Of a stretch of 64,000 nt of DNA, positions 15,787 to 32,577 are shown one piece after another. Numbering within the stretch: position 1 is the first letter of the stretch; each line of letters opens with the position of its first letter. The stretch is from Solobacterium moorei (GTDB lineage: Bacteria; Bacillota_I; Bacilli_A; Erysipelotrichales; Erysipelotrichaceae). The translations under genes and the position numbers were made by a program. The stretch covers positions 248,001 to 312,000 of the forward strand of contig NZ_AP028934.1 of assembly GCF_036323475.1 (NCBI RefSeq), read 5' to 3'. The notes under the pieces are model-generated. The model made no database searches, was not told where the DNA came from, and worked only from the letters and a program-made list of their open reading frames with translations.

Positions 15787-15794
15787 TTCAAATC

Positions 15795-15822: not shown

Positions 15823-15833
15823 AATACAAAATT

Positions 15834-15847
15834 AGAAAGCGTTTACA
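15834..15847 (+). promoter_or_regulatory. Probable cre site (CcpA operator)
   Basis: The 14 bases AGAAAGCGTTTACA match the CcpA consensus TGAAAGCGTTTACA at 13 of 14 positions. The site lies 80 bases upstream of the ROK-type regulator gene, in a gap with no other gene, so it may place the regulator or its operon under glucose repression. Confidence 0.7.
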
Positions 15848-15926
15848 AATTTATATTGCAAATATCGAAAGTTGGGTGTATTTTAGAAGTACGATTTATT
15901 TCGGAGTCCGAATTAAAGGAGTTTGC

Positions 15927-16850
15927 ATGGGTAAGAAGGGTTTAAAAGACATTAAAAATCAGAATACCAATTTAGTCATGCAACAGATCATGCAAGCAAG
16001 GAGTATTTCACGTATTGAGCTTGCACAAGAAACGGGCTTATCACCAAGTACAATCAGTTCAATTGTTGGAGATTTGCTAGGCAAAGGTGTCATTGTGGAA
16101 ACAGGCACACAGACAGTTGAAAAGGGTAGAAGTCGTAAAGATTTATCTATCGCTGCAGAATTTGGAAGTGTTGCGGTATTTGAAATCAGTCGACGTTCAG
16201 TATTCTTCTGCTTATTCGATATGTGTTTGGAAACTCTTGTCTCAACATGCATTACAAAACAGAGAATAACGGGTAATGACTTGTTTGAACTCTTAGTAGA
16301 AACTGTAAATACACACGCAGAACAGAATATACGTGGAATTGGTTTGTTACTACATGATGATGTACAGCCGAGTGACTTAAATACGATTTACGATACAGGA
16401 TATGCATCAGCAACAATCAGTTTACAAGGAGCACTCAACAGCCAACTACACATTCCTGTTAGTGAAGAAACATGCAGTAGTTTTACAATCACAAATGCAT
16501 TCAATGAAGAAACACTGCATGAGAAAGTAAACTGTGCACATGTGATGGTTGGTGAGAAAGTATTTACAACGGTTACGATTGATGGACAGAAAGTTCCACT
16601 ACGCTCAGAATTCTGTAAAGAGCTGCTCTCAGAAAACACAGGCACAAAGGAAGTTAGCCAGTTATTGAATACGTTATGTACGATGTTTGATATCAAAAAA
16701 ATCTTTATGATGGGTACAGATTTTCAGTTCTATCAAAAGCTAAAACTTCAGAATAAAGATGTGGAACTCATACAGGTTCACACAGAAGAAACGGATACTT
16801 TATCGCCACGTATGGCAGAGAAAGTAAGAAATGAATTGTTATTTATTTAG
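15927..16850 (+). CDS. ROK/NagC-type transcriptional regulator
   Basis: The 307-residue protein has an N-terminal winged helix-turn-helix (SRIELAQETGLSPSTISSIV, about residues 27-46) joined to a ROK-like body in which the kinase motifs are degenerate. The ATP motif DxGGT and the zinc cysteines are not visible. The body should therefore sense a sugar or sugar phosphate rather than act as a kinase. AAAGGAG precedes the ATG at 15927; the frame is open upstream but without a ribosome binding site. It sits between the FAD oxidoreductase and a transporter gene and could control either side. Confidence 0.8.
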   Translation: MGKKGLKDIKNQNTNLVMQQIMQARSISRIELAQETGLSPSTISSIVGDLLGKGVIVETGTQTVEKGRSRKDLSIAAEFGSVAVFEISRRSVFFCLFDMCLETLVSTCITKQRITGNDLFELLVETVNTHAEQNIRGIGLLLHDDVQPSDLNTIYDTGYASATISLQGALNSQLHIPVSEETCSSFTITNAFNEETLHEKVNCAHVMVGEKVFTTVTIDGQKVPLRSEFCKELLSENTGTKEVSQLLNTLCTMFDIKKIFMMGTDFQFYQKLKLQNKDVELIQVHTEETDTLSPRMAEKVRNELLFI

Positions 16851-16856
16851 GAACTA

Positions 16857-16870
16857 ACGACAATCGTCGT
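16857..16870. repeat. Short inverted repeat between regulator and permease genes
   Basis: ACGAC and GTCGT form a perfect inverted repeat around a 4-base centre, 28 bases before the permease start. It has no T-tract, so an operator role is as likely as an RNA hairpin. Confidence 0.4.
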
Positions 16871-16897
16871 GTTCATATAGGAAAGGGGAATTTGAAT

Positions 16898-18202
16898 ATG
16901 CTTCAAGGTATTTTAATTATTTTAGCCTTCGTTATCATCGCAGCATTGATGATGACAAAAAAGATTCCTACATTACTAGCGTTACCTTTAATGGCAGTTG
17001 TAATCTGCTTGATTGCTGGTGTTCCAGCAATTGGTGTAAACGCTGATGGTGTAGCAATCGGATGGTTGCAGGCAGTTCTAGAAGCTGGAACTGTCCGTAT
17101 GGGTGCGGCTATCATGGCGGTTATTTTCGGTTCATGGTTAGGTCAATTAATGAATAAAACAGGTATTACAGAAAATATCATTAAGAAATCCGCCGAATTA
17201 GGTGGCGATAAGCCATTAGTAGTAACACTGATTCTCTGTGTTGCGGTAGCATTACTCTTCACAACATTAAATGGGCTTGGTTCCATCATCATGGTTGGTT
17301 CTATCGTATTACCAATCTTGATCTCTATCGGTGTTCCAGCTTTATCAGCAGCATCAATCTTCTTAATGTCATTCATAACAGGTTTAACATTCAATATCGC
17401 TAACTGGAAGATGTTTGCAGGTATCTTCTCACTTGAAATCGATAAGATTCGTAACTTTGAGATTTACCTCATGATAGCTACAGCAGTGGCTACATTAATC
17501 TTGATCTTCGTTGAATTCAAGAAGAACGGTATCAAGTTTGCATTCTCAGCTCCAGCAAAGCAAGAAGCGAAGGCAACACAGCTAACTGGTGTTAGAGGTG
17601 GACTAGCAATGCTTACACCATTAATCCCAATCGCACTTGTTGCAGGTCTTAAGGTTCCAGTTTGTCCTGCATTCATGGTTGGTATTGCATGGGCATTGAT
17701 TTTCACATCAACATCTTTTGCAAAAGCTATGAACACACTTACAAAGACATGCTACGACGGCATCACAGATGCTGGTCCAGCAGTAATCTTAATGGTAGGT
17801 ATCGGTATCCTTTACTTAGCAGTTACACACCCAATGGTAAAAGAAGTTCTCAATCCATTCTTATTAGCTGTAACACCTAAGTCTAAGGTTGCATACATTC
17901 TATTCTTCTCACTATTAGCGCCATTAGCACTTTACCGTGGCCCAATGAACTTATTCGGTTTAGGTTCTGGTATCGCAGCGTTAATTATTGGTTTAGGAAC
18001 ATTATCTCCACTAGCAGTTATGGGTGCATTCTTATCTGCTGAACGTATCCAGGGTTGTGGTGACCCAACAAATACACAGAATGTTTGGACAGCAAACTTC
18101 TGTGAAGTAGATGTCAACAGCATTACACGTAAATTACTACCTTACCTATGGGTAATCGCAGTATTTGGTGTAGTATTATCAGCTGTATTATTTTTCAATT
18201 AA
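16898..18202 (+). CDS. Ion-transporter-superfamily permease (citrate/CitMHS-like)
   Basis: The 434-residue protein is almost wholly hydrophobic, with 11-12 segments, and contains an internal soluble stretch near residues 205-225 rich in Lys and Ala. The overall pattern (MTKKIPTLLALPLMAV at the start, FGSWLGQLMNKTGI near residue 80) resembles citrate/gluconate-type members of the ion transporter superfamily, which move organic anions. The ATG at 16898 is chosen because GGGG (16885-16888) is at the correct distance, whereas the in-frame TTG at 16892 is too close. Its neighbour, a HyuA-like protein, suggests a cyclic amide or related acid as cargo. Confidence 0.75.
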   Translation: MLQGILIILAFVIIAALMMTKKIPTLLALPLMAVVICLIAGVPAIGVNADGVAIGWLQAVLEAGTVRMGAAIMAVIFGSWLGQLMNKTGITENIIKKSAELGGDKPLVVTLILCVAVALLFTTLNGLGSIIMVGSIVLPILISIGVPALSAASIFLMSFITGLTFNIANWKMFAGIFSLEIDKIRNFEIYLMIATAVATLILIFVEFKKNGIKFAFSAPAKQEAKATQLTGVRGGLAMLTPLIPIALVAGLKVPVCPAFMVGIAWALIFTSTSFAKAMNTLTKTCYDGITDAGPAVILMVGIGILYLAVTHPMVKEVLNPFLLAVTPKSKVAYILFFSLLAPLALYRGPMNLFGLGSGIAALIIGLGTLSPLAVMGAFLSAERIQGCGDPTNTQNVWTANFCEVDVNSITRKLLPYLWVIAVFGVVLSAVLFFN

Positions 18203-18206
18203 ATAA

Positions 18207-18242
18207 AACTGAAGGGTGCTTATTCTTTAAGTACCCTCAGTT
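18207..18242 (+). terminator. Hairpin after permease gene
   Basis: AACTGA-GGGT pairs with ACCC-TCAGTT across a 10-14 base loop with one bulged A. Only ATTTAAAA follows, so this could be a weak terminator or an mRNA-stabilising hairpin before the HyuA-like gene. Confidence 0.5.
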
Positions 18243-18255
18243 ATTTAAAATGAGT

Positions 18256-18270
18256 ACAAGTTTAACTTGT
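18256..18270. promoter_or_regulatory. Perfect 15-bp inverted repeat upstream of hyuA-like gene
   Basis: ACAAGTT and AACTTGT flank a single T. The site is 33 bases before the start codon. Its symmetry and lack of a T-tract fit a dimeric repressor operator better than a terminator. Confidence 0.45.
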
Positions 18271-18302
18271 GTTGATTTTAGATAGGCATATGAGGAGGAT
18301 AT

Positions 18303-20456
18303 ATGAAAGTTCGTATTGGTATTGACGTAGGTGGTACATTTACAGATGCAGTTGCAATTAACAACGAAACATATGAGTTGATTGGAACAGTTAAGATTCC
18401 TACAACACACTTTGCACCAGAGGGTGTAGCTGCAGGTATCGTTCAAGTATTACATAAAATCATGGAGGAATATAGCATCAAACCTGATGATGTTGTATTT
18501 ATTGCTCATGGAACAACGCAGGCAACAAATGCCTTACTAGAAGGTGATGTTGTAAAGGTGGGTGTTGTAACACTTGGTAAAGGTTTACAAGGTGCAAAAT
18601 CAAAGAGTGATACAGCAATTGACAACATTGAATTAGCAAAAGGAAAGTATCTCTACTCTGAAAATGAGTTTGTCGATACATCTGATTCATCTAAGATTGA
18701 TGAATCAATTATCGCAGCAATCAAATCCCTACAAGAAAAGGGATGTAAGAGTATCGTAGCAGCTGAGGCGTTCTCTGTTGATGATCCTACAAATGAAAAT
18801 TTAGTTATCAAGCATTGTACAGAACAGAATGTTCCATCAACTGCCACAAACGATATCTCCAAGTTATATGGTTTAAAGATTAGAACACGTACAGCAGTTG
18901 TAAACGCTAGTATCATGCCTAAGATGTTAGAAGCTGCCACAATGACAGATGAATCCATCAAGAAAGCAAACATTAAGAATCCCCTCATGGTTATGCGTTG
19001 TGATGGTGGTGTTATGACGGTTGAGGAAGTAAGAAATCGTCCAATCCTAACAATCTTATCAGGACCAGCAGCTGGTGTTGCAGGTGCTTTGATGTATGAG
19101 AAATTAACAGATGGTATCTTCTTTGAAGTAGGTGGAACATCAACTGATATTTCATGCGTAAAAGATGGTAAGGTTATGATCAAGTACGCTGAAGTTGGTG
19201 GACATAAGACATATTTAAATTCTCTTGATGTACGTACCGTAGGTATCGGTGGTGGATCAATGGTAGAAATTAAAGATGGTAAGGCTGTTAATATCGGACC
19301 AAGATCTGCCCATATTGCAAACCTTGAATACGAAGTATATACAGACCCAAGTTTGATTGTTGAGCCTGTCTTAAAGACAATTCAACCAATGAATGGTGAC
19401 CCTGAGTATGCATACATTGAATGTAGTAATGGTACAAAGGTATCCCTAACCATGGCAGGTGCCGCAAACATTGCAGGTTATGTGCATCCAGAAGACTATG
19501 CATATGGTAATGTAGAGGCTGCACGTAAAGCATGGCAACCACTCGCAGATAACATGGGCTTATCTGTGGAAGAAACAGCGAAAACGGTAATGGCATACGC
19601 AGCTGAAAAGAATGGTAAGGTAGTCAAAGACTTAATGCATGACTATCAGATGGATCCACGCACAACACTATTCGTTGGAGGTGGAGGAGGTGCAGCTAGC
19701 GTTGTGCCACATCTAGCCGAAACAATGAATCATCAATTCAAGATTGCAAAGAACGCTCCAGTTATCTCGACTATCGGTGTCGCACTAGCGATGGTTCGTG
19801 ATATGGTGGAACGTTCCGTATCCAACCCGACAGAAGAAGATATCATCAGTGTACGTCGTGAAGCAGAGCTAAAGGCAATTCAAAATGGCGCATCACCAGA
19901 TACAGTCGAAGTTTCTGTCGAAGTTGATACACAACGTAACATCATTCGTGCAATCGCAGTAGGTGCTACAGAACTACGTAGTAAAGATCGTCTAAAGAAA
20001 CAACTAACAACAGAAGAGTTACTTGATACAGTTGCGCATAACTTAAATGTTGATAAATCAACATTAGAGATTTCTGCAGAAAACGGCAGTATGTACGCAG
20101 TACAAGCAACCATCACAGAAAAGAAACTTTTTGGTCTTGTTAAGAAGACAACAAAACCACTACGTCTCATTGATGATGAAGGTGTTATCCGTCTACAGAA
20201 GAAAAATGCATGGTCACGTCAATCTTCAGCCGCAAGCTGGCAAGCGGATGTTGACTGGATGATTGAAGAACTAACAGAATATAACGATGGTGGTGCAAAC
20301 CTACCGAATCTATATATTGTGTTAGGTAAGCGTGTCATCGACCTATCTGGTCTACAGAATGCAGAACAAATTAAGTCAATTGGTGGTGTTGAGTTAAGTG
20401 GTATCGCAGCAGACACAAAACTGATAGTCATTGCGACAAAGAGAGTGGATGGCTAA
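18303..20456 (+). CDS. Hydantoinase/oxoprolinase family protein, HyuA-like
   Basis: The 717-residue protein begins with the actin-like ATP motif RIGIDVGGTFTDAVAI, has AHGTTQATNALLEG near residue 66, and the second phosphate region EVGGTSTDISCVKDGK near residue 278. These are diagnostic of HyuA/5-oxoprolinase subunit A proteins, which use ATP to activate a cyclic amide. The usual partner HyuB is not in the window. Instead its stop overlaps the start of a small HEXXH protein, and an organic-anion permease gene precedes it. AGGAGG precedes the ATG. The C-terminal 150 residues do not show a motif I recognise. Confidence 0.88.
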   Translation: MKVRIGIDVGGTFTDAVAINNETYELIGTVKIPTTHFAPEGVAAGIVQVLHKIMEEYSIKPDDVVFIAHGTTQATNALLEGDVVKVGVVTLGKGLQGAKSKSDTAIDNIELAKGKYLYSENEFVDTSDSSKIDESIIAAIKSLQEKGCKSIVAAEAFSVDDPTNENLVIKHCTEQNVPSTATNDISKLYGLKIRTRTAVVNASIMPKMLEAATMTDESIKKANIKNPLMVMRCDGGVMTVEEVRNRPILTILSGPAAGVAGALMYEKLTDGIFFEVGGTSTDISCVKDGKVMIKYAEVGGHKTYLNSLDVRTVGIGGGSMVEIKDGKAVNIGPRSAHIANLEYEVYTDPSLIVEPVLKTIQPMNGDPEYAYIECSNGTKVSLTMAGAANIAGYVHPEDYAYGNVEAARKAWQPLADNMGLSVEETAKTVMAYAAEKNGKVVKDLMHDYQMDPRTTLFVGGGGGAASVVPHLAETMNHQFKIAKNAPVISTIGVALAMVRDMVERSVSNPTEEDIISVRREAELKAIQNGASPDTVEVSVEVDTQRNIIRAIAVGATELRSKDRLKKQLTTEELLDTVAHNLNVDKSTLEISAENGSMYAVQATITEKKLFGLVKKTTKPLRLIDDEGVIRLQKKNAWSRQSSAASWQADVDWMIEELTEYNDGGANLPNLYIVLGKRVIDLSGLQNAEQIKSIGGVELSGIAADTKLIVIATKRVDG

Positions 20457-21000
20457 TATGCTAGGATTTGCATATCCTTTCCCAACCAAAGATCTTGCAT
20501 ATCAAGAACTTACGTATGATTATTGTTATAACAAGATTAAGAAAGAAGATAAGCAACGTATTGTAGATGAGGCTTGGAAAAAGGGTGAGGAAACCGCAAA
20601 GGAAGTATTCGCAAAGTTTAATGGTAGTTATGACTTCCGCAAGATTTGCGCTGAATCAGGACTACAGTTAAATGATAAGGATACTGACTATGTTGTCGGT
20701 AATCAAAGATACTTCAGTGATTATGTGTCCGGAACCAATCAGATTAACCTCTACCTAAAGTCTATTGCAAAGTGGGCAGAAGAGAATCAGTTATCTATGG
20801 ATGATGCAATCAATCTCATCCTTAGCCATGAATATTTTCACTTCATGGAGATGAATATGATAGGACAACTGAGTAAATCCTACGAAGTGCCAATGTTAGT
20901 GATTGGTAAATTTAAACTAGGTAAAACAGGCATCCATGCATTATCCGAAATCGGAGCACATGGCTTTGCCCATCAGTATTATCTTCTAGCAACAAATTAA
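20449..21000 (+). CDS. Small HEXXH putative metalloprotein
   Basis: The 183-residue soluble protein has the zinc-protease signature HEYFH at residues 127-131 and a glutamate in ALSEIGAHGFAHQ at about residue 167 that could be the third metal ligand. I do not recognise the rest. It begins inside the end of the HyuA-like gene (ATG 20449, overlap 8 bases; ATG 20458 is an alternative), so the two are probably translated together. No signal peptide is seen, so it acts in the cytoplasm. It could hydrolyse the product of the HyuA-like enzyme or be its partner; neither is proven. Confidence 0.75.
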   Translation: MANMLGFAYPFPTKDLAYQELTYDYCYNKIKKEDKQRIVDEAWKKGEETAKEVFAKFNGSYDFRKICAESGLQLNDKDTDYVVGNQRYFSDYVSGTNQINLYLKSIAKWAEENQLSMDDAINLILSHEYFHFMEMNMIGQLSKSYEVPMLVIGKFKLGKTGIHALSEIGAHGFAHQYYLLATN

Positions 21001-21005
21001 ACAAT

Positions 21006-21034
21006 AAAAGCAGGATTAACGCCTGCTTTTATTT
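21006..21034 (+). terminator. Terminator of the HyuA-like operon
   Basis: AAAAGCAGG pairs with CCTGCTTTT around a short loop, followed by ATTT. The arms are A-rich and T-rich, so it may work in both directions and also serve the minus-strand regulator ending at 21066. Confidence 0.75.
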
Positions 21035-21065
21035 ATGAATGTATGCATGTGGAATCAAAGTTATA

Positions 21066-21773
21066 TTATAGAATTAGACTTTGATATTTATGTGATAGTT
21101 TTTTAAAGCATTCGATATCAATAGTAATTTTACCTTTTCGTAGTTTGATCATTCCTTCTAATTCCATGGTATCTAAGTATCTATACAATGATCGAAGATT
21201 TATATGGAGAACGTCTGCTAACTCACTTCTTTTTAATGGGCAGATATATGGAATCGATTCACAGGATTTTAAGTATAGGTAGTATCCAACAATATCCTTT
21301 TTAGGAAAAGTACTCTGTGTTTCAGCGTGTTCCATTGCATGAGTGGTTACTCTCGCTAAAATTTTTAATATTGAAAAACTTATATCAAAGTTAGATGCTA
21401 ATATTTCGTAAAACTCATTATTATGAACTTTTAATACATAGCAGTCTGTTTTTGCTATAACAAATCCAGTATATTCCCTTTTTTTAGTTAAATACTCAGT
21501 AATACCTAGACAATCAATTGCATTTACCTCATCAATTGTATTATTGATATTCCAATCGATATCATTAAGGACTAAACCTTCGCCACTCAATAATATATAA
21601 ATATAGTCTGCGGGCTGCCCTTGTGTTATTATTGTTTTTCCTTTTTTTATCTGAAAGATATATGTTTCATGCAGTAATTCTGTTAATTGGTAAATTGATT
21701 GTTTGGATAAGTTGTCTAGTGAATCGTTCAGAAAAATTATATTGAATGCATGTTTTAAATTTTTATTTATCAT
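21066..21773 (-). CDS. Crp/Fnr-family transcriptional regulator
   Basis: The 235-residue protein has an N-terminal cyclic-nucleotide-binding-like beta-barrel (GKTIITQGQPADYIYILLSG, residues about 39-58) and a C-terminal helix-turn-helix (RSELADVLHINLRSLYRYLD). No cysteine cluster for an Fe-S centre is seen at the N-terminus, so it is more Crp-like than Fnr-like; its ligand is unknown. It is divergent from the ECF/nucleoside operon, and a palindrome lies between the two genes. It is probably the local regulator. Confidence 0.85.
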   Translation of the reverse strand: MINKNLKHAFNIIFLNDSLDNLSKQSIYQLTELLHETYIFQIKKGKTIITQGQPADYIYILLSGEGLVLNDIDWNINNTIDEVNAIDCLGITEYLTKKREYTGFVIAKTDCYVLKVHNNEFYEILASNFDISFSILKILARVTTHAMEHAETQSTFPKKDIVGYYLYLKSCESIPYICPLKRSELADVLHINLRSLYRYLDTMELEGMIKLRKGKITIDIECFKKLSHKYQSLIL

Positions 21774-21791
21774 AATTGAAGTTTATCAAAG

Positions 21792-21811
21792 AAACTGACA
21801 ACTGTCATTTT
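21792..21811. promoter_or_regulatory. Candidate Crp/Fnr-type operator
   Basis: TGACA and TGTCA are separated by AC, with AAAC and TTTT extending the symmetry, giving 8 of 9 matched positions per arm. It lies 18 bases from the start of the Crp/Fnr-type gene and about 100 bases before the ECF operon. Confidence 0.5.
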
Positions 21812-21913
21812 CTTTTTAAATTTCTTTCGATACACTGAAGGTACAAGTAAATTTTACGGAATGCTAATAGAGGTGATTACATCCATAGATAAAGATTAGG
21901 AGGATATAAGACT

Positions 21914-22519
21914 ATGGAAACAACAAAAAAGTATTCTATTAAAGATGATTTTACAATGCAGGCAATTCTCATCATTCCAGTATGTGTTGCTGTCAATTTT
22001 GTTGGCGGACAGCTTGCTGGATTATTAAAGTTACCAATGTACCTAGATACCATTGGAACGATTTTTGCATCATTATTATGCGGTCCATGGGTTGGTGCCG
22101 TAGCAGGTGGTTTAACAAATGTTGTTACTGGAATAGCAAATCCAACTAATTTCGCATTTATTCCAGTAAATATCATTGCGGGTTTAGTAACTGGTTTCTT
22201 AGCTAGAAAAAACATGTTTAATAAAACATGGAAGTGGTTACTATCTATGTTTATCATGGCCTGGGTATCTATTATTGTATCTGCACCAATTGTAGTTCTT
22301 GTATATGGTGGAGTTACAGGTGGCGGAACATCTTTAATTACTGCAGCTGCTTTGGCAGCAGGGGCAAATATTTGGGCAGCATTCTTTGGGACAGAAGGAG
22401 TTTTCCAAGTGTTAGATAGAATTATCTCTTTCTTAATTTGTTGGGCAGTTATTAAAGTGATTCCTACTAGAAACTTGATTAAATTTAGTCTTGGGGAGTT
22501 ATATATCAAAAAGAAGTAG
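21914..22519 (+). CDS. ECF transporter S component (substrate-binding membrane subunit)
   Basis: The 201-residue protein has six membrane segments and the sequence YLDTIGTIFASLLCGPWVGA near residue 42, a pattern typical of ECF S components. It should bind the substrate in the membrane and dock on the T protein encoded next. The specificity cannot be read from family motifs. Since genes for a uridine-phosphorylase-like enzyme and a nucleoside hydrolase lie downstream, nucleosides are the most likely cargo. AGGAGG precedes the start. Confidence 0.82.
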   Translation: METTKKYSIKDDFTMQAILIIPVCVAVNFVGGQLAGLLKLPMYLDTIGTIFASLLCGPWVGAVAGGLTNVVTGIANPTNFAFIPVNIIAGLVTGFLARKNMFNKTWKWLLSMFIMAWVSIIVSAPIVVLVYGGVTGGGTSLITAAALAAGANIWAAFFGTEGVFQVLDRIISFLICWAVIKVIPTRNLIKFSLGELYIKKK

Positions 22520-22560
22520 AAATAAATCACCTCTATTCGCATCCATATTGAAAGGTAAGT

Positions 22561-23367
22561 ATGGAAAAGACGTTTGCAGAACAGATTCAGATCAACAAAT
22601 CAAATAAAATCTGTGGTTTACACCCAAAAGCAAAATTAGTAATTTTAATATCTTATTCAATTTGCTCGTTTATCTTAATGACAGTGAATGTAACTAGCTT
22701 AGATATTCCGCTTTTAGTAATTCCATGGTTTTTTATATTGCCTATTTTGGCATTGATGAGTGGTATATTAATTAAATTTATCAATGGATTTAAGGTTATA
22801 TTTACAATTTCTTTAATTGTATTTCTAGTACAGTTATTTTTGATATCAGGCGGAGAAGAACTGTGGAGATTTTACTTTTTGAGTATATATCAAGGCGGTT
22901 TGAAATCAGCTCTCATTCTGACATTTATGATTACTAATATTGCAGGAATATTTTTATGGTATTTTCAAACTACAACTAATCAAGAAATATCCAGAGCTTT
23001 AGAAGAATCAGGAATGAATTATAAAGCAGCTTTCGTGTTTACTTCATCACTGAAAATGATTGATGTATTAGGGAAGAATAGTAAAACAATCATGAATGCT
23101 CAACAAGCACGTGGTGTGGAAACTGAGGGAAACATATTAATCAGAGCAAAGGCGTTTTTCCCTTCAATGGTTCCTTTGATTCTCGGGGCGGTGATTAATG
23201 CAGATGAAAAAGCATTAACTTTAGAAGCGAGAGGATTTAACTATCAATGTAGGAAAACAAGATTATTCAATCTAAAGAAATCTGGTTGGGAAAAACAGGC
23301 AATACTAATTAGTATTTGTATAACAATAATGATTTTAGGATGGAGAGTTTTATGGCAGATTATGTAA
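22561..23367 (+). CDS. ECF transporter T component
   Basis: The 268-residue membrane protein has about six helices and the two Ala-Arg-Gly signature motifs of T components: QQARGVETEG near residue 180 and LEARGFNY near residue 222. These helices couple ATP hydrolysis to toppling of the S component. The GGTAAG upstream is a modest ribosome binding site. Its stop overlaps the first ATPase gene by 16 bases. Confidence 0.9.
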   Translation: MEKTFAEQIQINKSNKICGLHPKAKLVILISYSICSFILMTVNVTSLDIPLLVIPWFFILPILALMSGILIKFINGFKVIFTISLIVFLVQLFLISGGEELWRFYFLSIYQGGLKSALILTFMITNIAGIFLWYFQTTTNQEISRALEESGMNYKAAFVFTSSLKMIDVLGKNSKTIMNAQQARGVETEGNILIRAKAFFPSMVPLILGAVINADEKALTLEARGFNYQCRKTRLFNLKKSGWEKQAILISICITIMILGWRVLWQIM

Positions 23368-24209
23368 TCGAATGTAAGAATATTACCTACACCTATCCTG
23401 TTTCTGAAGAACCAGCAATTAAAAATTTAAATCTTGATATCGAAAGAGGAAAATTTTATGGAATAATTGGAAACAATGGCTCTGGAAAATCAACCTTATG
23501 TGCAATATTAAGAGGGTTTGCCCCTGCATATTTTAAAGGAAAATTAGATGGTGAAGTGATATTTAACGGGAAAGATATTAGTCAATATGGTTATGAAATA
23601 TCTAAAATGATAGGCTATGTTTTTCAAAATCCATTTACACAAATCAGTGGAATAAAAGAAACTGTTTTTGAAGAGATTGCATATGGTCTCGAAAATTTTG
23701 GGACACCAGTAGAAGAAATTGAAAAACGTGTTGTCGAAGTAATGAAGTTGACTAATACTGAAGAACTTGCAATGAAGAACCCTTATGAACTCTCAGGTGG
23801 CCAAATGCAGAGAGTTGCTTTGGCATCTGTAATTGTACTTAACCCAGATGTTTTAATTATAGATGAGCCCACAAGTCAATTGGATCCACAAGGTACGGAA
23901 AGCGTTTTTGAAATAATAAGAAAATTAAAGGAACAGAGAAAAACAATTATCTTAGTTGAACATAAAATTGACTTGATTGCGGAATTTACAGATCAGGTAG
24001 TTATTCTGAAAGATGGAGAAATACTTACAGAAGGTGACACAAAATCTGTGTTGACTGATATATCTCTATTAGAACATGGAATTGCAATTCCACAAGTTAC
24101 TCAGCTAGCTATTCAATTGAAAGAAATTGGTTTACCAATCAATTCAATAAGTGTTACTGAAGAAGACTTACTCAATATTCTTAAGAGTTTATTGTATGAA
24201 AGGGGATAG
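23352..24209 (+). CDS. ECF transporter ATPase A1
   Basis: The 285-residue ATPase has Walker A GNNGSGKST near residue 37, Q-loop FQNP, signature LSGGQMQRVA, Walker B VLIIDEP and switch histidine VEHK. The ATG at 23352 has GGAGAG in front and lies inside the end of the T gene. It should pair with the next ATPase as an asymmetric dimer below the T component. Confidence 0.92.
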   Translation: MADYVIECKNITYTYPVSEEPAIKNLNLDIERGKFYGIIGNNGSGKSTLCAILRGFAPAYFKGKLDGEVIFNGKDISQYGYEISKMIGYVFQNPFTQISGIKETVFEEIAYGLENFGTPVEEIEKRVVEVMKLTNTEELAMKNPYELSGGQMQRVALASVIVLNPDVLIIDEPTSQLDPQGTESVFEIIRKLKEQRKTIILVEHKIDLIAEFTDQVVILKDGEILTEGDTKSVLTDISLLEHGIAIPQVTQLAIQLKEIGLPINSISVTEEDLLNILKSLLYERG

Positions 24210-24212
24210 GAA

Positions 24213-25034
24213 ATGCAGACCATTAAATTTAATGATGTAGGGTATTGCTATCCAAATGGTTTCTGTGCCGTTGATAATATCAATATTGAAATTGAAAAAG
24301 GTGAAAATGTTGTAATCATTGGTCAAAATGGTGCCGGTAAAACCACAACGGTAAAAATGATGAATGGATTATTAAAACCCTCATCTGGAGAAGTGCTAGT
24401 TGGAGATAAAAATACTAAAGATTATACAACCGCACAGATTTCGCGTCATGTTGGTTATGTATTTCAGAATCCAGACGACCAAATTTTTCACTCAACGGTT
24501 GAATTGGAAGTGAGATATGGACCGGCAACAACGGGGTCATCAAAAGAGGTCGAAGATCAGAGAGTTGAAAGAGCACTTGAGATGACAGGTTTAACTAAAC
24601 ATCGAGATGAAAATCCATATAACTTACCACTCTCTATACGCAAATTTGTGACAATCGCTGCAATTATAGCGATGGATACAGATATTATGATTTTTGATGA
24701 GCCGACTGCAGGACAGGATTTAGAAGGGACACGACAACTAATTAATGTAATTAATACTTTACATGAAGAAGGGAAGACACTAATTACCATTTCTCATGAC
24801 ATGGAGTTTGCGGCGAATAATTTTGAAAAAATAATAGTAATGGCTAATAAAAAAGTCGTGAAAATTGGAAGGCCGGAAACTATTTTCTATGATTTTAAGA
24901 CTTTGGATCAAGCAATGCTTAAGCAGCCATATGTATGTAGAATTGTTTCTAAACTTGGTATAGAGTCCAATGCAATTAGTTTAAATAATGCGGCGAAAGT
25001 TATCTTAGAGAGATGGAAGCAAAATGCGAAATAA
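24213..25034 (+). CDS. ECF transporter ATPase A2 with altered signature motif
   Basis: The 273-residue ATPase has intact Walker A GQNGAGKTT, Q-loop FQNPDDQ, Walker B IMIFDEP and ISHD, but the ABC signature is not LSGGQ: at the expected place the protein reads NLPLSIRKFVTIAA. It resembles the EcfA' variant and is likely the partner of A1. If so, only one of the two composite ATP sites would have a canonical signature. It starts 3 bases after A1 and its end overlaps the MFS gene by 11 bases. Confidence 0.88.
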   Translation: MQTIKFNDVGYCYPNGFCAVDNINIEIEKGENVVIIGQNGAGKTTTVKMMNGLLKPSSGEVLVGDKNTKDYTTAQISRHVGYVFQNPDDQIFHSTVELEVRYGPATTGSSKEVEDQRVERALEMTGLTKHRDENPYNLPLSIRKFVTIAAIIAMDTDIMIFDEPTAGQDLEGTRQLINVINTLHEEGKTLITISHDMEFAANNFEKIIVMANKKVVKIGRPETIFYDFKTLDQAMLKQPYVCRIVSKLGIESNAISLNNAAKVILERWKQNAK

Positions 25035-26229
25035 AAGGTTTATATTTGGGTTTGTTGCATTTGCATTATATTTTTTGACTGGCGCAGCATGTATTGTCGT
25101 TGGAAGTGGTTTATCGCATTTTGCAGATAAGTTTGGAACTGATATTAAAACAATTGTGATTTTGGGCTCTTTATATTCACTTGGAAGAGTAAGTACTGTT
25201 TATTTGACTGGAAAACTTGTAGAGAAGATAGGACCACTTAAAGTCACAGTTATGGGAATATGTTTAATGGGTCTTTATTTAACGGGTATTGCGTATACAC
25301 ATTCATTTTATTATGCACTGGTCTTTGCATATATAGGCGGAGTTGGAATGGGAGCTCAAGATACAGTATGTCCTTTGTTTTTAAGCGTAGCTTTTCCAGA
25401 TAATTACGCAGGCTCACTAAGTGCCGGTCAAGGATTATTTGGTTTAGGTGGCTTTATAACACCTTTTTTAACAGGTGTTATGCTAATGAATAAGCTACCT
25501 TTCTATTTTGCATATTATGTATTACTTATTTTTGCTCTAATTACATTGGGTTTTGTAATATATGAGAAAAAAACAATTAATGTAACATTCAATCAAAAAA
25601 GGAATTTGACAGTATCTGATGAGACACAAATCAAACCATTATTTACAAAGAATAAAGTGATAGCTTTCACAGCTATATTATTGGCTGCTGCAACATATAG
25701 TACCACTGTAAACACAATTGGACTTTATACAACTACATTTGCAGAATATCAAGGTTTTACAAGTGCTAGTGCTGTGTTCTTGCTAACTGTATATAACGTT
25801 GGTTCGGTTATAGGCTCTTTAATATTTATATTGATATTAAAAAGAGTTTCTGCCGTCAATATTTTGATTGTAAATAATATTCTATCAATTGTTATATTTG
25901 CAATTTTAGAGCACCTAAAAGATTCAACAGTTTATTTTATATGCCTTTTTGCTGCAGGTTTTTTATTAGGTGTACTCTTTAGTTTAATTGTGGAAATTAC
26001 AACAAGAATTGGATATAAACATATTAGTGTTGCAAGTGCATATGTGGCAGTTGCAGGTGGTTTTTCGGATGTTCTCACACCAATTATTACAGGATTTATT
26101 GTTGGAGTATTTGGTATTGCGTCAATTTATAGGTATGCATTTATTGCAATAATTATCACAACTATATTAGCTATTATGGTTCGAATATATACATATGAAA
26201 GTGGAGGCTCTTATGTCAATTCAAAGTAA
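25024..26229 (+). CDS. MFS transporter
   Basis: The 401-residue protein has 12 hydrophobic segments and the loop 2-3 region YLTGKLVEKIGPLKV, which fits the major facilitator motif GxLxDrxGrk loosely. It starts inside the ATPase A2 gene and its end overlaps the phosphorylase gene by 17 bases. Within a nucleoside operon it could export a base or import a second nucleoside or sugar; no direct evidence exists for either. Confidence 0.85.
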   Translation: MRNKRFIFGFVAFALYFLTGAACIVVGSGLSHFADKFGTDIKTIVILGSLYSLGRVSTVYLTGKLVEKIGPLKVTVMGICLMGLYLTGIAYTHSFYYALVFAYIGGVGMGAQDTVCPLFLSVAFPDNYAGSLSAGQGLFGLGGFITPFLTGVMLMNKLPFYFAYYVLLIFALITLGFVIYEKKTINVTFNQKRNLTVSDETQIKPLFTKNKVIAFTAILLAAATYSTTVNTIGLYTTTFAEYQGFTSASAVFLLTVYNVGSVIGSLIFILILKRVSAVNILIVNNILSIVIFAILEHLKDSTVYFICLFAAGFLLGVLFSLIVEITTRIGYKHISVASAYVAVAGGFSDVLTPIITGFIVGVFGIASIYRYAFIAIIITTILAIMVRIYTYESGGSYVNSK

Positions 26230-26962
26230 AGAAGTATTAAATGAAAAAGGTCAACAATACCACATTTGTGTAGAAAAAGGACAGATTGGGAGATATGTGC
26301 TTCTCCCAGGGGATCCTGGTAGAACAGACTTAATTGCAAAATTCTTAGATAATCCAAAGCTGGTTGCATATAATCGTGAGCATAAAACATGGACAGGATA
26401 TTTAGATGGAGAAATGGTTTCTGTTACAAGTACAGGAATGGGTGGACCATCGGCTGCAATATGCTTAGAAGAATTAATACATGCAGGTGCGGAAACATTT
26501 ATCCGTGTGGGTACATGCGGAAGGATTTGTGAAGAGAGTTATAACAAAAAATATGAAGGTGTTGTTATTACTGGTGCGATTCGTCATGAAGGAACAACGG
26601 TACAGTATATTCCAATCGAGTATCCTGCAATGGCTGATCGTCATGTTACAGATGCACTAGTTAAATCAGCGCAAGAACAAGGTTTTTGCTTTGCAGAAGG
26701 TATAGCGCAATGTAAGGACTCATTTTATGGCCAACATGATCCTGATAGTATGCCAAGTGGTTTTATGTTGAAATCATATTGGGAAGCATGGGAAAAAGCA
26801 GGTGTAATGGCTTCTGAAATGGAAAGTGCAACAGTATTTATTGTAGCTGCAATACGTGGCAAGAGAGCAGGAGCACTAATGGCTTATGAGCATATGAATG
26901 AAAATACAATCAGGACAGCAATAGGTGCAATTAAGAAACTTATCAAGTCAGATAGATTGTAG
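26213..26962 (+). CDS. Nucleoside phosphorylase, uridine phosphorylase-like
   Basis: The 249-residue protein has LPGDPGRTDLIAKFLD near residue 30, TSTGMGGPSAAI, FIRVGTCGRI and the ribose-binding MASEMESATVF. These are the phosphate, base and ribose segments of the Udp/DeoD (NP-I) family, and Udp is the closest by motif. It would split a nucleoside with phosphate to a free base and pentose-1-phosphate. The ATG at 26213 has GGAGG in front and lies inside the MFS gene end. Confidence 0.9.
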   Translation: MSIQSKEVLNEKGQQYHICVEKGQIGRYVLLPGDPGRTDLIAKFLDNPKLVAYNREHKTWTGYLDGEMVSVTSTGMGGPSAAICLEELIHAGAETFIRVGTCGRICEESYNKKYEGVVITGAIRHEGTTVQYIPIEYPAMADRHVTDALVKSAQEQGFCFAEGIAQCKDSFYGQHDPDSMPSGFMLKSYWEAWEKAGVMASEMESATVFIVAAIRGKRAGALMAYEHMNENTIRTAIGAIKKLIKSDRL

Positions 26963-26978
26963 AATGGGAAATAGTATT

Positions 26979-27917
26979 ATGAAACAGAAAATTATTATTG
27001 ATACAGATTGTGGGTCAGATGATGCAATGGCAATAGCCATGGCAATGAATGATACAAGATATGAAGTACTTATGTTTTCTACTGTGGCAGGAAATGTGAC
27101 ATTGGATCAAGCAACTGATAATACATTGCTCACATTAGAAAAAGTAAATACATACTTTCCGCCAGTATATAAAGGCTGTGCAACAATGCTAAATAAACAG
27201 TTATTCTATGCATATGAGACACATGGTGATGATGGAATGGGTGATTATGGATATAAACCTACCTATTTAGAATGCAATGAAGGAAATGGAATTATAAAGA
27301 TGCTTGAATTTCTGGGAAAAGAGCCTAATAAAACAATCGATATTATTGCTTTGGGGCCTTTAACAAATATAGCGGTTGCATTTAAATTGAAACCAGAATC
27401 TATGAATCGTGCTAGAAATATATATGTTATGGGAACATCAGGACTAGGTGTTGGAAATGTTTCTCCAGTAGCAGAATTTAATATATGGCAAGATCCTGAA
27501 GCTGCTAAGGCGGTTATAGAAGCAGGATTCCCAAATTTATATTTTATCGGATGGGATGCATGTTTAGATGATAACATGCTAGATAAAGATGATATTGAAA
27601 AAATTTATTCAAGTGGTGATTTAGGGAGATTTGTAATTGAAATCAACAGAAAACTATTAGAAATTAATTACGGACGCTTCTCAGGAAAATTCCTGGACAT
27701 GGCGGATCCTGCTGCAATGGCAGCAGCATTACATCCCAAGTGTATTGATAAATGCAAAAAATATTATTGTGAAGTAGATACATCAAAAGGACCTAGTGAA
27801 GGTGGTGTTCTAATCGACGTAAATGAATTTTCTGGAAAAGAACCAAACGCATATATAATTAGTCATTTGATTCCAAGTGAGTATAAGAATTATCTATTTA
27901 AAACACTGTGTAAATAA
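26979..27917 (+). CDS. Nucleoside hydrolase (IUNH family)
   Basis: The 312-residue protein starts with the calcium-binding motif IIIDTDCGSDDAMAIAMA (DxDxxxDD) typical of inosine-uridine nucleoside hydrolases; ALGPLTNIAVAF and AEFNIWQDPEAA further on are also conserved. It cleaves a ribonucleoside to base and ribose. Together with the phosphorylase this gives two routes to the base. ATG 26979 is preferred (GGGA upstream), with 26964 as an alternative. Queuosine hydrolases of this family exist, so a modified nucleoside cannot be ruled out. Confidence 0.88.
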   Translation: MKQKIIIDTDCGSDDAMAIAMAMNDTRYEVLMFSTVAGNVTLDQATDNTLLTLEKVNTYFPPVYKGCATMLNKQLFYAYETHGDDGMGDYGYKPTYLECNEGNGIIKMLEFLGKEPNKTIDIIALGPLTNIAVAFKLKPESMNRARNIYVMGTSGLGVGNVSPVAEFNIWQDPEAAKAVIEAGFPNLYFIGWDACLDDNMLDKDDIEKIYSSGDLGRFVIEINRKLLEINYGRFSGKFLDMADPAAMAAALHPKCIDKCKKYYCEVDTSKGPSEGGVLIDVNEFSGKEPNAYIISHLIPSEYKNYLFKTLCK

Positions 27918-27993
27918 AGACTATATATGAGTTGGTTATAACTTTAAAAAGAAAAATTTACTGAAGAATATTATTCGTAACTACTTTTATAAC

Positions 27994-28027
27994 AAAAAGT
28001 TGCAATTTTATTGTTGCAACTTTTTGT
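27994..28027 (+). terminator. Terminator of the ECF/nucleoside operon
   Basis: A perfect 12-bp stem (27994-28005 with 28014-28025, 8-base loop) ends with TTTTT. It cleanly separates the nucleoside operon from the aldolase/PTS operon. Confidence 0.88.
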
Positions 28028-28078
28028 AATTTAATAAACATGCAGAATAGCATTAAATAGTATTAAGGAGAAAAGTAT

Positions 28079-28690
28079 ATGGAACTATCAAAAGTAACAA
28101 TGATATTACGTGGATATAACGTAGAACAAGTAAGAACAGTTGCGGAAGTTCTATTACATGCAAAGTATGTAAGAAATATGGAAATAACTCTAAATACTGA
28201 TAATGCATATGAAATAATCCAGATAATATCAAATGAATTTCAAGGAAAGTTAAATGTTGGTGCTGGAACAGTTCAAACTTATGATGAACTTAAAAAAGCA
28301 GTAGATGCAGGGGCAAAGTTTGTTCTTTCACCAAGACAAATGTCATATGACATGCTTGCATATTGTAAGGAAAGAGGTATAGTCAGTGTACCAGGGTCAT
28401 TTACGCCTTCTGAAATTGGTGACCAGTTTGCAATGGGGGCGGACATTGTTAAAGTTTTCCCAGCTAATGAACTAAGTTTGAAGTATGCGAAAAAAGTTTG
28501 TGAGCCAATGGGAGATCTTAAATTAATGGCAGTTGGTGGAATCAATAGAGAAAATGTTAGAGAAGCTTTAGATTCTGGATATAAATATGTTGGTACAGCA
28601 GGTGGATTATTTCCTAAAGACCAAATTGCACAGATGGATAAAGAGAAGATGCTTATTAGTCTAAAGGAGTTTGAAGCTGAACTAGATTAA
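28079..28690 (+). CDS. KDPG/KHG aldolase-family protein
   Basis: The 203-residue protein has the family signature: MEITLNT (catalytic glutamate), NVGAGTV, the Schiff-base lysine in DIVKVFPA and the phosphate loop VGGINRENV. It should cleave or form a 2-keto-3-deoxy-6-phospho acid. AAGGAG precedes the ATG. Its position at the head of a fructose-type PTS operon suggests it works on a sugar-derived phosphate made by that PTS, but no dehydratase is encoded nearby. The exact substrate is unknown. Confidence 0.88.
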   Translation: MELSKVTMILRGYNVEQVRTVAEVLLHAKYVRNMEITLNTDNAYEIIQIISNEFQGKLNVGAGTVQTYDELKKAVDAGAKFVLSPRQMSYDMLAYCKERGIVSVPGSFTPSEIGDQFAMGADIVKVFPANELSLKYAKKVCEPMGDLKLMAVGGINRENVREALDSGYKYVGTAGGLFPKDQIAQMDKEKMLISLKEFEAELD

Positions 28691-28698
28691 GGAGAGCC

Positions 28699-30618
28699 AT
28701 GAAAGATATACAGAAAAGAAGAAAATTAATAATCGACTTGCTGATTAATGCAGAAGATTACTTAACAGTAAAGAAGATATCATCTCTTTTAGGTGTATCT
28801 GAAAGAACAGTACATAATGATTTAGATTGTCTACAGGACAAGTACGAGATTATTAAGAAGAGTGGAGTGGGCATTAGGCTGGTTTCAAATAATAATCTAA
28901 TCGATACGGAAACAACTTTAGATGATAGACGACTAGATATTATAAAAAAATTAGTATTGGAAGGTCGAATAGTCACAATTAATGAACTTAAAGAACAATA
29001 TTATGTGTCTCAAAGTTCGATACTGAATGATTTAAGATGGATAAGGGACAATTTTCTGCAATCATATAATGCAAATCTTTTTAGTTCTGAAAAAGGTACG
29101 AAAGTTATTTGCTCTGAAAACGAAAGAATTAAGATATTAGTATCATATAGTAATTTGGCGATTAACTTAGATCAAACAAATTTTCAAAAAGAAGAAATCA
29201 TAAGGAAATTTTCTTTGATTTATCCTAAAAATATTTGTGAAACATGCTGGCATGTTATCGAAATGTTTAGAAATGAACAATTTTCACAGAAGGCAGAATA
29301 TTACTTGCAAAATGTCTATAAGTTTCTACTTGCACTAATCTACAGGCTGCAATTAGGTAATCATTTAGTAGCTGAAAATAAAAATGAACTGCATACTATG
29401 CAAGTTATGGAACTGACAAATTATCTCCTTGCCCGTGATGTCTATAATTTAATAAATGAAAATTTAGATATTAAAATAATACCTACCGAAGAAGATGTCT
29501 TATATCTATCGATGCTTTTACGAGCAAATAAAATTAGCTTTTTGAAAACAACAAATGGGATAGATGATTATTCTAAGCAATTTGCTTCTAGTCTAATTAA
29601 AAAAATGTCGGAAGTTCTAGGAATAGATTTAACTGGTAATTCACAATTAGTTGAAATGATTTGCTCACATTGTAATGCAATGTTCGAAAGAATCAAAAAT
29701 AGAGTTAAACTTGAAAACCCAATGTTGCAAATTATTAAGCAGGAATATCAAGCAATGTTTGAGTTGGTATGGCTTATAGTTGATGCAATAGATCACAATA
29801 TTTCGAAAAATATTAGTGAGGATGAAATAGGTTTTTTGATGCTGTATTTCCAGAATGAAATGGAAAAGAACAAGAAAAGTAAAAAAATAATCGTTGTTTG
29901 TCCGAATGGAGTAGTAGCATCTAACCTTATAGCGTCTAAGATTAGAGAGTTTCTTCCGCCTATGGATATTATCGAAGTGACATCAATAGACAGAATTGCA
30001 AAGAATGATATTTCAGGATACTCATTTATCGTATCAACTACATCATTGGATAAACAGATAATACCTGTCATACAAGTTTCAATGCTATTAACAATTCAAG
30101 ATATTAATAATATCAAGGATATGTATGAGGGTATTAGTGAATATAAGAGCGGTGATAATGCTATTTTTAGTCAATTGAAAACCAAATATTTGACTGAAGA
30201 AGATATATTTTGGAGTAATAAATCTCTGACTAGGGAGAATGTGATCCATGAGGTATGTAGAAAATTATTAGACAGTGGAAAAGTGAAAAAAGGTTTTTAC
30301 GAGTCAGTTCTTAATCGAGAGAAAATATCTTCAACAAGTATATCGACAGGTGGTGCAATTCCACATGCATCTTGCAAATATGTAAATGAGACATGCTTTG
30401 CATTATATGTAAGTAGCAAACCTATTGAGTGGGGAGATTACTCAGTAAAAGTTATTATTTTCTTTGCTTTAGCAGAGTCAGATATGCCTGACTCAAGGAG
30501 AATTCTTACTGAGGCATTTAATTTTATTAGAGAACAAAATATCGTGGATACATTAGCAAGTGTAAATTCAAAGGACAGATTGATAGATTTGATATATTTT
30601 GGAGGAAAAAATGATTGA
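28699..30618 (+). CDS. BglG/MtlR-type PTS-controlled transcriptional regulator
   Basis: The 639-residue protein has two N-terminal helix-turn-helix units (LTVKKISSLLGVSERTVHND near 20; TINELKEQYYVSQSSILND near 95), PTS regulation domains in the middle, an EIIB-Gat-like domain with CPNGVVASNLIASKIRE near 395, and an EIIA-Fru-like domain ending near the C-terminus with GGAIPHASCKY. Phosphorylation of these domains by the PTS should set its activity. It lies 8 bases after the aldolase gene and its end overlaps the EIIA gene by 8 bases. Confidence 0.92.
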   Translation: MKDIQKRRKLIIDLLINAEDYLTVKKISSLLGVSERTVHNDLDCLQDKYEIIKKSGVGIRLVSNNNLIDTETTLDDRRLDIIKKLVLEGRIVTINELKEQYYVSQSSILNDLRWIRDNFLQSYNANLFSSEKGTKVICSENERIKILVSYSNLAINLDQTNFQKEEIIRKFSLIYPKNICETCWHVIEMFRNEQFSQKAEYYLQNVYKFLLALIYRLQLGNHLVAENKNELHTMQVMELTNYLLARDVYNLINENLDIKIIPTEEDVLYLSMLLRANKISFLKTTNGIDDYSKQFASSLIKKMSEVLGIDLTGNSQLVEMICSHCNAMFERIKNRVKLENPMLQIIKQEYQAMFELVWLIVDAIDHNISKNISEDEIGFLMLYFQNEMEKNKKSKKIIVVCPNGVVASNLIASKIREFLPPMDIIEVTSIDRIAKNDISGYSFIVSTTSLDKQIIPVIQVSMLLTIQDINNIKDMYEGISEYKSGDNAIFSQLKTKYLTEEDIFWSNKSLTRENVIHEVCRKLLDSGKVKKGFYESVLNREKISSTSISTGGAIPHASCKYVNETCFALYVSSKPIEWGDYSVKVIIFFALAESDMPDSRRILTEAFNFIREQNIVDTLASVNSKDRLIDLIYFGGKND

Positions 30619-31078
30619 TGAAAAATTGATTTTTACAGGATTGGAGTATACAGAAAAAACAGCTTTACTCAATTTCTGCTACAAGAAATTAAAAGAATTA
30701 GATTATTTATCAGATATTTCAGAATTTGCAGATGAAATAAAAAAAAGAGAAGAGATTATGCCAACATCAGTTGGTTTTGGGGTAGCGATTCCTCATGGTA
30801 GATGTAAAGCTATTAAACGGCCATTCATTGTATTCATTAAATCTAGTGAGCCATTTTTTTGGAATAGAGATGATTCTGAAAAGTCTGATTTAATCTTCAT
30901 GATTGGTGTACCTGAGGGGGATAATGCAAGTAACATGCACTTGCGTATACTTTCCTCCATTAGTAAGAAGCTAATGCATGATGAATTTAGGGATGCTCTA
31001 AGAAATGGTACAGATAAGGAAGTATATCAATTATTAAATGAAATTGATCAAACAATAACAGGAGGATGCAACAAATGA
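30611..31078 (+). CDS. PTS fructose-type EIIA
   Basis: The 155-residue protein has the phospho-histidine site GVAIPHGRCKAI near residue 60, typical of EIIA-Fru/Mtl domains. The ATG at 30611 has GGAGG in front and overlaps the regulator gene by 8 bases. The single-domain form pairs with separate EIIB and EIIC genes that follow. Confidence 0.9.
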   Translation: MIDEKLIFTGLEYTEKTALLNFCYKKLKELDYLSDISEFADEIKKREEIMPTSVGFGVAIPHGRCKAIKRPFIVFIKSSEPFFWNRDDSEKSDLIFMIGVPEGDNASNMHLRILSSISKKLMHDEFRDALRNGTDKEVYQLLNEIDQTITGGCNK

Positions 31079-31389
31079 AAATTATTGGTATTACAGCATG
31101 TCCAACAGGGATTGCGCACACATATATGGCACAAGAATGTTTGGAAAAAGAGATTAAAAAAAGAGGCATCGATGTAAAAATAGAAACCCAAGGCGGCCTT
31201 GGAATAGAAAACGAATTAACAGAGGATGATGTGGCTTCAGCTGATGTTGTTATTCTTGCAGTTAGTGTAGTAATTGAAGGTGAGGAAAGATTTGAAGGAA
31301 AGAAGATTATCAACACAGATGTAAACGAGGCAATTTCAAATACTGCAGGATTGATAGACCGAGCAGTTGAACTAGCGAAAGGGGAATAA
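31075..31389 (+). CDS. PTS fructose-type EIIB
   Basis: The 104-residue protein has the phospho-cysteine motif TACPTGIAHTYMAQE at its start, as in EIIB-Fru. ATG 31075 (AGGAGG upstream) overlaps the EIIA stop by 4 bases. It carries phosphate from EIIA to the sugar taken up by EIIC. Confidence 0.93.
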   Translation: MKIIGITACPTGIAHTYMAQECLEKEIKKRGIDVKIETQGGLGIENELTEDDVASADVVILAVSVVIEGEERFEGKKIINTDVNEAISNTAGLIDRAVELAKGE

Positions 31390-31390
31390 T

Positions 31391-32443
31391 ATGAAGCAAG
31401 TATTAAAAGATGTACAGAAGGCATTACTAAGTGGCGTATCATTTATGATGCCAATTGTTGTGGCTGGTGGTGTGATATTGGCGGTATCACTATTAGGCGC
31501 ACAGCAAACACCTACTGGACTTGTTCCGGCAAATGACATATTAAAATTTTTAAATACTCTAGGTAAAGCAGGAATGGCAATGATGATTCCGGTTTTCTCG
31601 GCATACATTGCATATTCTATGGCTGGTAAACCGGGCTTAACTCCAGGATTTATTTTAGGTTTCATGGCAAATAATGCCGTAAGCATTAATGGTACAGATG
31701 TAAAAACTGGTTTCTTAGGAGCAATGATTTTAGGTATCTTAAGCGGTTATGTAGTTAAGTGGATGAAATCATGGAATGTTGGTAAGTCGCTCCGTTCTGT
31801 GATGCCAATTATCATTATTCCAGTACTTACTGTTTTGGGACTAGGGTTAATTTATTATTTTGTAATTGGATATCCAATTGCTATTTTAGTAAATGCATTA
31901 TTAAAATTCATGACAGGTCTATCAACTACAAATGCTATTGGTTTGGCTATATTGATGGGCGCAGTTGCTGAGATTGATTTTGGTGGACCAGTAACAAAGA
32001 CAGTATCTATGTTCACATTGGCTTTAATCAATGAAGGCGTATTCTGGCCAAATGGAATTTTCCGTGTGTTAGTAGCAGTTCCACCTATTGGCATTTTCTT
32101 GGCAACTATTCTTTTCAAAAAGAAATTTAGTGAAGAAGATAGGGATAATGCAAAGGCAGTGGGTATTATGGGATGCTTAGGAATTACAGAAGGTGCAATT
32201 CCATATGCATTAAAAGATCCTAAGTCTGTATACCCGGCAACAATTATTGGTGGTATCGTTGGTGCGATTATTGCTTTATTTGGAAAAGTAGAGTGCCCAG
32301 TACCACATGGTGGATTTATTGTTTTACCAGTAGTATCAGGACGAATCTTATTTATTGTTGCAATTTTAGTAGGCTCCTTAGCAACTGCTGTAGTTCTAGG
32401 ACTACTACGTAAAGATGCTACAGAAAATACAGAATCAAAATAA
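31391..32443 (+). CDS. PTS fructose-type EIIC
   Basis: The 350-residue membrane protein has eight to ten hydrophobic segments, with GVSFMMPIVVAGGVILAVS at the start and EIDFGGPVTK near residue 195, and GCLGITEGAIPYAL near residue 258, a conserved region of EIIC-Fru. It transports and, with EIIB, phosphorylates a hexose or related acid. Specificity cannot be read directly. It lies one base after the EIIB stop; a terminator follows. Confidence 0.92.
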   Translation: MKQVLKDVQKALLSGVSFMMPIVVAGGVILAVSLLGAQQTPTGLVPANDILKFLNTLGKAGMAMMIPVFSAYIAYSMAGKPGLTPGFILGFMANNAVSINGTDVKTGFLGAMILGILSGYVVKWMKSWNVGKSLRSVMPIIIIPVLTVLGLGLIYYFVIGYPIAILVNALLKFMTGLSTTNAIGLAILMGAVAEIDFGGPVTKTVSMFTLALINEGVFWPNGIFRVLVAVPPIGIFLATILFKKKFSEEDRDNAKAVGIMGCLGITEGAIPYALKDPKSVYPATIIGGIVGAIIALFGKVECPVPHGGFIVLPVVSGRILFIVAILVGSLATAVVLGLLRKDATENTESK

Positions 32444-32475
32444 TTAAAAACTTCTTCACCTAAACTTACACGATG

Positions 32476-32515
32476 CTACCTACTTAAGAGTATTACTTGA
32501 AAGTAGGTAGTTTTT
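32476..32515 (+). terminator. Terminator of the aldolase/PTS operon
   Basis: A perfect 10-bp stem (32476-32485 with 32501-32510) has a 15-base loop and five T residues directly after it. Confidence 0.85.
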
Positions 32516-32521
32516 ATATTG

Positions 32522-32551
32522 TTGTAACGCATGGGAAACATCATCTATACT
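32522..32551 (+). promoter_or_regulatory. Promoter of the XRE-type gene
   Basis: TTGTAA (32522-32527) is separated by 18 bases from TATACT (32546-32551), 27 bases before the start codon. Confidence 0.5.
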
Positions 32552-32577
32552 TAAATAAGTTATAGAGGGTAGTCATT

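Follow-up and report, generated by a model that had tools for sequence, protein, structure and literature searches.

The window analysed here, a stretch of 64,000 nucleotides from Solobacterium moorei, comes from a single contig of 2.6 Mb. At the locus of interest, seven tightly packed genes encode the S, T, A and A' components of an ECF transporter, an MFS protein, a uridine-phosphorylase-like enzyme (UP) and a nucleoside hydrolase (NH), with a gene for a CRP-type regulator divergent from them (Table 1). All seven open reading frames and the regulator gene are found at the coordinates proposed in the initial annotation, and their Pfam families agree with the gene assignments made there. The T/A, A'/MFS and MFS/UP pairs overlap, and the other junctions are short gaps of 3 bp (A to A'), 16 bp (UP to NH) and 41 bp (S to T). 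Given this packing, the seven genes are likely co-transcribed as a single operon. The same gene order is seen in many genomes and the grouping is therefore not due to chance. The hairpin 3' of the NH stop codon, a possible terminator, is absent from the output of the consensus scan. We also considered riboswitch control of the operon, but rejected it as there is no Rfam match, including to a preQ1 riboswitch, in the region 15000-33000 around it.

Table 1. Features of the operon and its immediate surroundings; positions are those of the window.
Feature	Position	Strand	Basis
Divergently encoded CRP/FNR-type regulator of transcription	21066-21773	-	PF00027, 46 bits; PF13545 below cut-off
EcfS (substrate-binding), nearest family CD3073	21914-22519	+	PF12822, 42 bits (cut-off 30.7); NF045596, 120.7 bits (cut-off 180)
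EcfT, transmembrane coupling component	22561-23367	+	PF02361, 70.7 bits; two ARG motifs
EcfA ATPase, canonical Walker A and LSGGQ	23349-24209	+	TIGR04520, 245 bits; motifs
EcfA' ATPase, degenerate signature LPLSIRKF replacing LSGGQ	24213-25034	+	TIGR04521, 225 bits
MFS transporter, proposed base exporter	25024-26229	+	PF07690, 99.9 bits
UP, uridine-phosphorylase-like enzyme without a C-terminal loop of ~22 residues	26213-26962	+	PF01048 (PNP_UDP_1), 113 bits; TIGR01718, 241.5 bits (cut-off 280.3)
NH, nucleoside hydrolase (IU_nuc_hydro), Ala at the RihB His239 position	26979-27917	+	PF01156, 242 bits; alignments
Hairpin with 14-bp arms, 3' of the NH stop, possible terminator	about 27992-28027		Read by eye from the sequence

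The first four genes encode the components of an ECF module. The S protein combines a PF12822 match above the cut-off with an AlphaFold model (pLDDT 83.7, pTM 0.82) that adopts the S-component fold, while the T protein carries its PF02361 match and both ARG motifs in the same operon as S. The two ATPases match PF00005 at 99 and 95 bits, and both contain a Walker A motif and a DEP Walker B motif. The motifs of EcfA are canonical (GNNGSGKS, LSGGQ), whereas EcfA' has lost the LSGGQ signature. In fact, this loss extends to the whole family, in which the A' signature reads LPxSxRKF: SGG, and thus LSGGQ, is kept in 0/73 A' proteins, and RK occupies the sixth and seventh signature positions in 71 of them. 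Both housekeeping ECF ATPases of the window's genome carry LSGGQ. Asymmetric ABC exporters have one degenerate composite ATP site, and one of the two composite sites formed here may be degenerate as well. The family-wide loss poses a sharp mechanistic question on ECF ATPases. We note that the genome encodes a separate housekeeping T-A-A' set. Synteny kept across phyla and the control loci described below bear out the original description of an ECF module of the group I type that is self-contained, joined to nucleoside cleavage and equipped with its own regulator.

ECF transporters are known mainly for the uptake of vitamins and metals, with queuosine precursors as a nucleoside-like exception. 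The window S matches one NCBIfam model much better than any other, namely NF045596 (“CD3073 family putative ECF S component”), although its membership cut-off is not reached; the relatives that were scanned score 90-134 bits too. The genome's other S component, in L206, has no CD3073 match, which speaks for the specificity of the assignment. No S model of known substrate fits the window S well in the model scan (the FolT-family model, whose cut-off is 60 bits, gives 21) and consequently no vitamin family claims it, nor does the Pfam scan match it to PF06177 (QueT) at E<=0.001. The initial annotation had proposed a comparison with the known S families, QueT among them; the closest family proves to be CD3073, below its cut-off, and neither QueT nor a vitamin family. 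Naming a substrate from the fold was considered and rejected, since ThiT, FolT and RibU match the model alike (VIA Z about 13-14) and the fold alone does not distinguish between them. Within the S family, the polar residues N28, D45, T49, N69 and D168 are conserved and are candidate ligand contacts. S is also the operon's most conserved member among close relatives (about 80% versus 50-72%).

These comparisons bear on the reading that S serves a vitamin or vitamin precursor, e.g., a thiamine-like pyrimidine, with the nucleosidases acting on glycosides or being mere neighbours. ThiT is the best fold match, albeit within the tie, and TenA-like genes occur in 6/19 loci of the S sub-clade described below. 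However, beyond the poor fit of the known-substrate models, the linked genes are NH, UP and PfkB rather than vitamin genes, and the operon lacks a riboswitch whereas the genome's other S is accompanied by an FMN riboswitch. We therefore consider a vitamin substrate improbable.

The genomic context of S was surveyed at 80 named loci and further unnamed loci, whose open reading frames were searched with profiles built in this analysis; the window S served to gather these loci by similarity, and they are mutually related. A PF01156-type hydrolase lies within 5 kb of S in 55/73 loci (those in which S is free-standing and flanked by 5 kb on either side), and NH, UP or a PfkB kinase is present in 57 of the 61 loci that have their own T. 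None of these three genes is found at 30 control loci of other PF12822 S components from the same phylum. For the NH linkage (55/73 versus 0/30) Fisher's test gives 9e-14, a value that is overstated because of this relatedness and of the way in which the loci were picked. S genes that lack T, A and A' are still paired with NH in 7/12 loci (e.g., L042, L045 and L196-L203), and the association spans Bacillota, Chloroflexota, Spirochaetes, SAR324, Actinomycetota and one haloarchaeon. Ribokinase-like genes are also frequent near S relatives, several of which have a phosphopentomutase or PfkB kinase nearby. At two loci where NH is missing (L041 5385-7085; L103 13187-14997), a BtpA/SgcQ-family protein and a PfkB kinase adjoin the same S-T-A-A' set, perhaps providing a kinase-then-cleavage route.

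The conserved linkage of S to NH, set against the empty control, makes nucleoside import the best reading of the operon. We propose, with a probability of roughly 0.7, an importer and cleavage operon in which (I) S-T-A-A', a dedicated ECF-type ABC importer, would take a ribonucleoside into the cell, (II) UP would split the imported nucleoside by phosphorolysis to ribose-1-phosphate or, alternatively, NH would split it by hydrolysis to ribose, and (III) the pentose would be used while the base would be reused or would leave the cell through the MFS protein. The operon would be controlled by the CRP-type regulator. What the sequences show is gene content, family membership, conserved linkage and clade-specific enzyme changes; that S-T-A-A' is a nucleoside importer is a reading that we hold with some confidence. 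A family tied to NH and present in Bacillota, in Chloroflexota and even in a haloarchaeon would extend the ECF class to nucleosides. In a literature search of incomplete coverage, CD3073 was named in no paper, and no paper mentioned an ECF transporter together with nucleoside uptake; searching for ECF together with nucleoside hydrolase gave nothing on the window system.

Among described systems, the one most similar in design is the C. difficile queK-qrtT-queL operon, which pairs ECF uptake with an IunH-family hydrolase (PMC11477304, PMC11130926). As in QrtT/QueK, an ECF S component in the window stands with an IunH-family hydrolase that would free the base from an imported nucleoside. Unlike that system, going by descriptions rather than sequences, the window has a dedicated T-A-A' set, a UP-type enzyme, an MFS protein and a CRP-type regulator, and lacks a preQ1 riboswitch. 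Besides the C. difficile precedent, salvage of queuosine, with S taking it up and NH freeing queuine, would be in keeping with a TGT encoded in the genome and with the fact that known QrtT proteins also belong to PF12822 (PMC11130926). The missing QueT match, the absence of a preQ1 riboswitch or other Rfam element, and a second enzyme of uridine phosphorylase type nevertheless render it very improbable. Consequently, the queuosine-like substrate that had first been put forward as an example is not upheld.

More can be said of the substrate from the close relatives of the window S, which falls within a 25-row monophyletic clade (SH-aLRT 99 in a quick tree), hereafter the sub-clade. Within 8 kb of S, the 19 sub-clade loci with full flanks contain MFS (19), UP (18), NH (16), TudS-related (15), CRP-type (13) and isomerase-like (11) genes; the corresponding counts at 54 loci outside the clade are 2, 1, 41, 1, 12 and 1. 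The isomerase-like gene encodes a 400-aa protein weakly similar to arabinose/sulfoquinovose isomerases and adjoins sub-clade operons, e.g., at L061 16768-18018 and L065 16157-17359.

Both cleavage enzymes have diverged within this sub-clade. The best solved relative of the operon UP is the Streptococcus pyogenes uridine phosphorylase 3qpb (240 bits), with which it shares a CKD[AS]FYGQH stretch but from which it differs by the missing C-terminal loop and by an Asp where E. coli Udp has R168. The loop, present in E. coli Udp as well as in a second uridine phosphorylase of the window's genome (L002), is deleted in all aligned clade UPs except that of L077. By contrast with R168, the counterparts of E. 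coli Udp H8, R30, R48, R91, Q166 and E198 are kept. The loop flanks the active site, and it is therefore reasonable to infer that the operon UP has a more open base pocket. Similarly, the operon NH, a PF01156 member, keeps its metal-binding aspartates, with DTDCGSDDA and an Asp matching RihB D240, as well as the counterpart of RihB His82, while the position of RihB His239 is Ala in 22/22 clade NHs and in 0/71 elsewhere. Neither UP nor NH reaches the curated cut-offs of the function-specific models. Both the loop loss in UP and the His239-to-Ala change in NH would fit an altered base specificity.

These changes have to be weighed against a simpler account in which ordinary ribonucleosides (uridine, cytidine, inosine etc.) are imported for ribose and base salvage and the changes in UP and NH tune activity. 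In sister lineages (L038, L039, L096) the partners of S are ribokinase-like genes and more than one NH paralogue, a set that would suit general nucleoside scavenging, and the window lacks a desulfidase. On the other hand, the genome already has the full-loop UP and three other PF01156 hydrolases, and a changed substrate is what one would expect from a sub-clade that has lost both the UP loop and NH His239. Import of ordinary nucleosides thus remains a substantial contender at appreciably less than even odds. As to the window's sub-clade, its substrate has probably become a modified pyrimidine ribonucleoside that perhaps stems from degraded tRNA; for the main substrate to be a modified rather than an ordinary nucleoside, we would put the chance a little short of even.

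That the substrate may be thiolated is suggested by the TudS-related neighbour of the relatives, a divergent 186-aa protein that scores 164 bits against NF045597 (cut-off 130). TudS enzymes remove the sulfur from 4-thiouracil and 4-thiouridine but act chiefly on 4-thio-UMP (PMC10611767), and the neighbour is a putative desulfidase of a family related to TudS. NF045596 and NF045597 describe the CD3073 S component and the CD3072 TudS-related putative desulfidase, respectively. The window S and its relatives match the former and the relatives' neighbour exceeds the cut-off of the latter. In contrast to this pairing, the window S scores below the NF045596 cut-off and no desulfidase is found in the window's genome at E<=0.1 with either PF04463 or NF045597. 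A desulfidase encoded elsewhere in the genome was thereby rejected, so that the desulfidation step is drawn from the relatives and a thiolated substrate does not follow from the window itself. The gene content and enzyme changes of the sub-clade suggest a modified, perhaps thiolated, pyrimidine nucleoside; possible candidates are thiolated pyrimidines, 5-modified uridines and 2'-O-methyl nucleosides. Hydrolases for the last of these are known, as exemplified by the L. buchneri 2'-O-methylribonucleoside hydrolase (PMC6278475). The modified nucleoside of the initial annotation is thus favoured by the derived UP and NH and by the relatives' TudS-related neighbour, though not in its queuosine form. 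The most elaborate version of our proposal is a widespread ECF branch that imports nucleosides with asymmetric ATPases, in which the window's sub-clade serves thiolated or otherwise modified tRNA-derived pyrimidine nucleosides by means of a loop-less phosphorylase, a His-less hydrolase and, in most members, a TudS-related desulfidase. It is offered tentatively, as it is rather unlikely to be correct in all these parts. Such a system would give named, testable genes for the scavenging of modified nucleosides from RNA turnover.

The layout around the regulator resembles that of E. coli yeiL/rihB-nupX, where genes for a nucleoside hydrolase and a nucleoside transporter likewise diverge from that of a Crp-type regulator. 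The transporter class is different, however, and the window's regulator has no more than weak similarity to YeiL (22% over 96 aa).

The operon was likely acquired horizontally. Among 272 genomes of the same family, no other genome of the window's genus has a free-standing S of the window type, whereas the nearest S proteins, with up to 83% identity, are encoded in Lachnospiraceae and other Clostridia; in addition, the G+C content of the operon is 33.8% versus 38.0% in the rest of the window. Seven other genomes of the genus do have an S-like match, each in a frame of more than 700 aa, and the three such long proteins that were scanned (in G029, G022 and G023) carry a C-terminal HD domain (HD_5, PF13487). 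Proteins of 717-732 aa from this genus, with an N-terminal S-like domain and a C-terminal HD_5, are encoded at L043 4559-6751, L044 9546-11744 and L050 2249-4402. These fusions are possibly receptors that sense the same ligand as S.

Outside the operon, the window contains a hydantoinase A-like gene (18303-20456) that adjoins a transporter-like gene (16892-18202) and is followed by a gene for a 189-aa protein (20431-21000) with no Pfam or NCBIfam match. Further along, an ADP-ribosylglycohydrolase-family gene (37303-38295) lies directly 3' of a PTS EIIBC gene.
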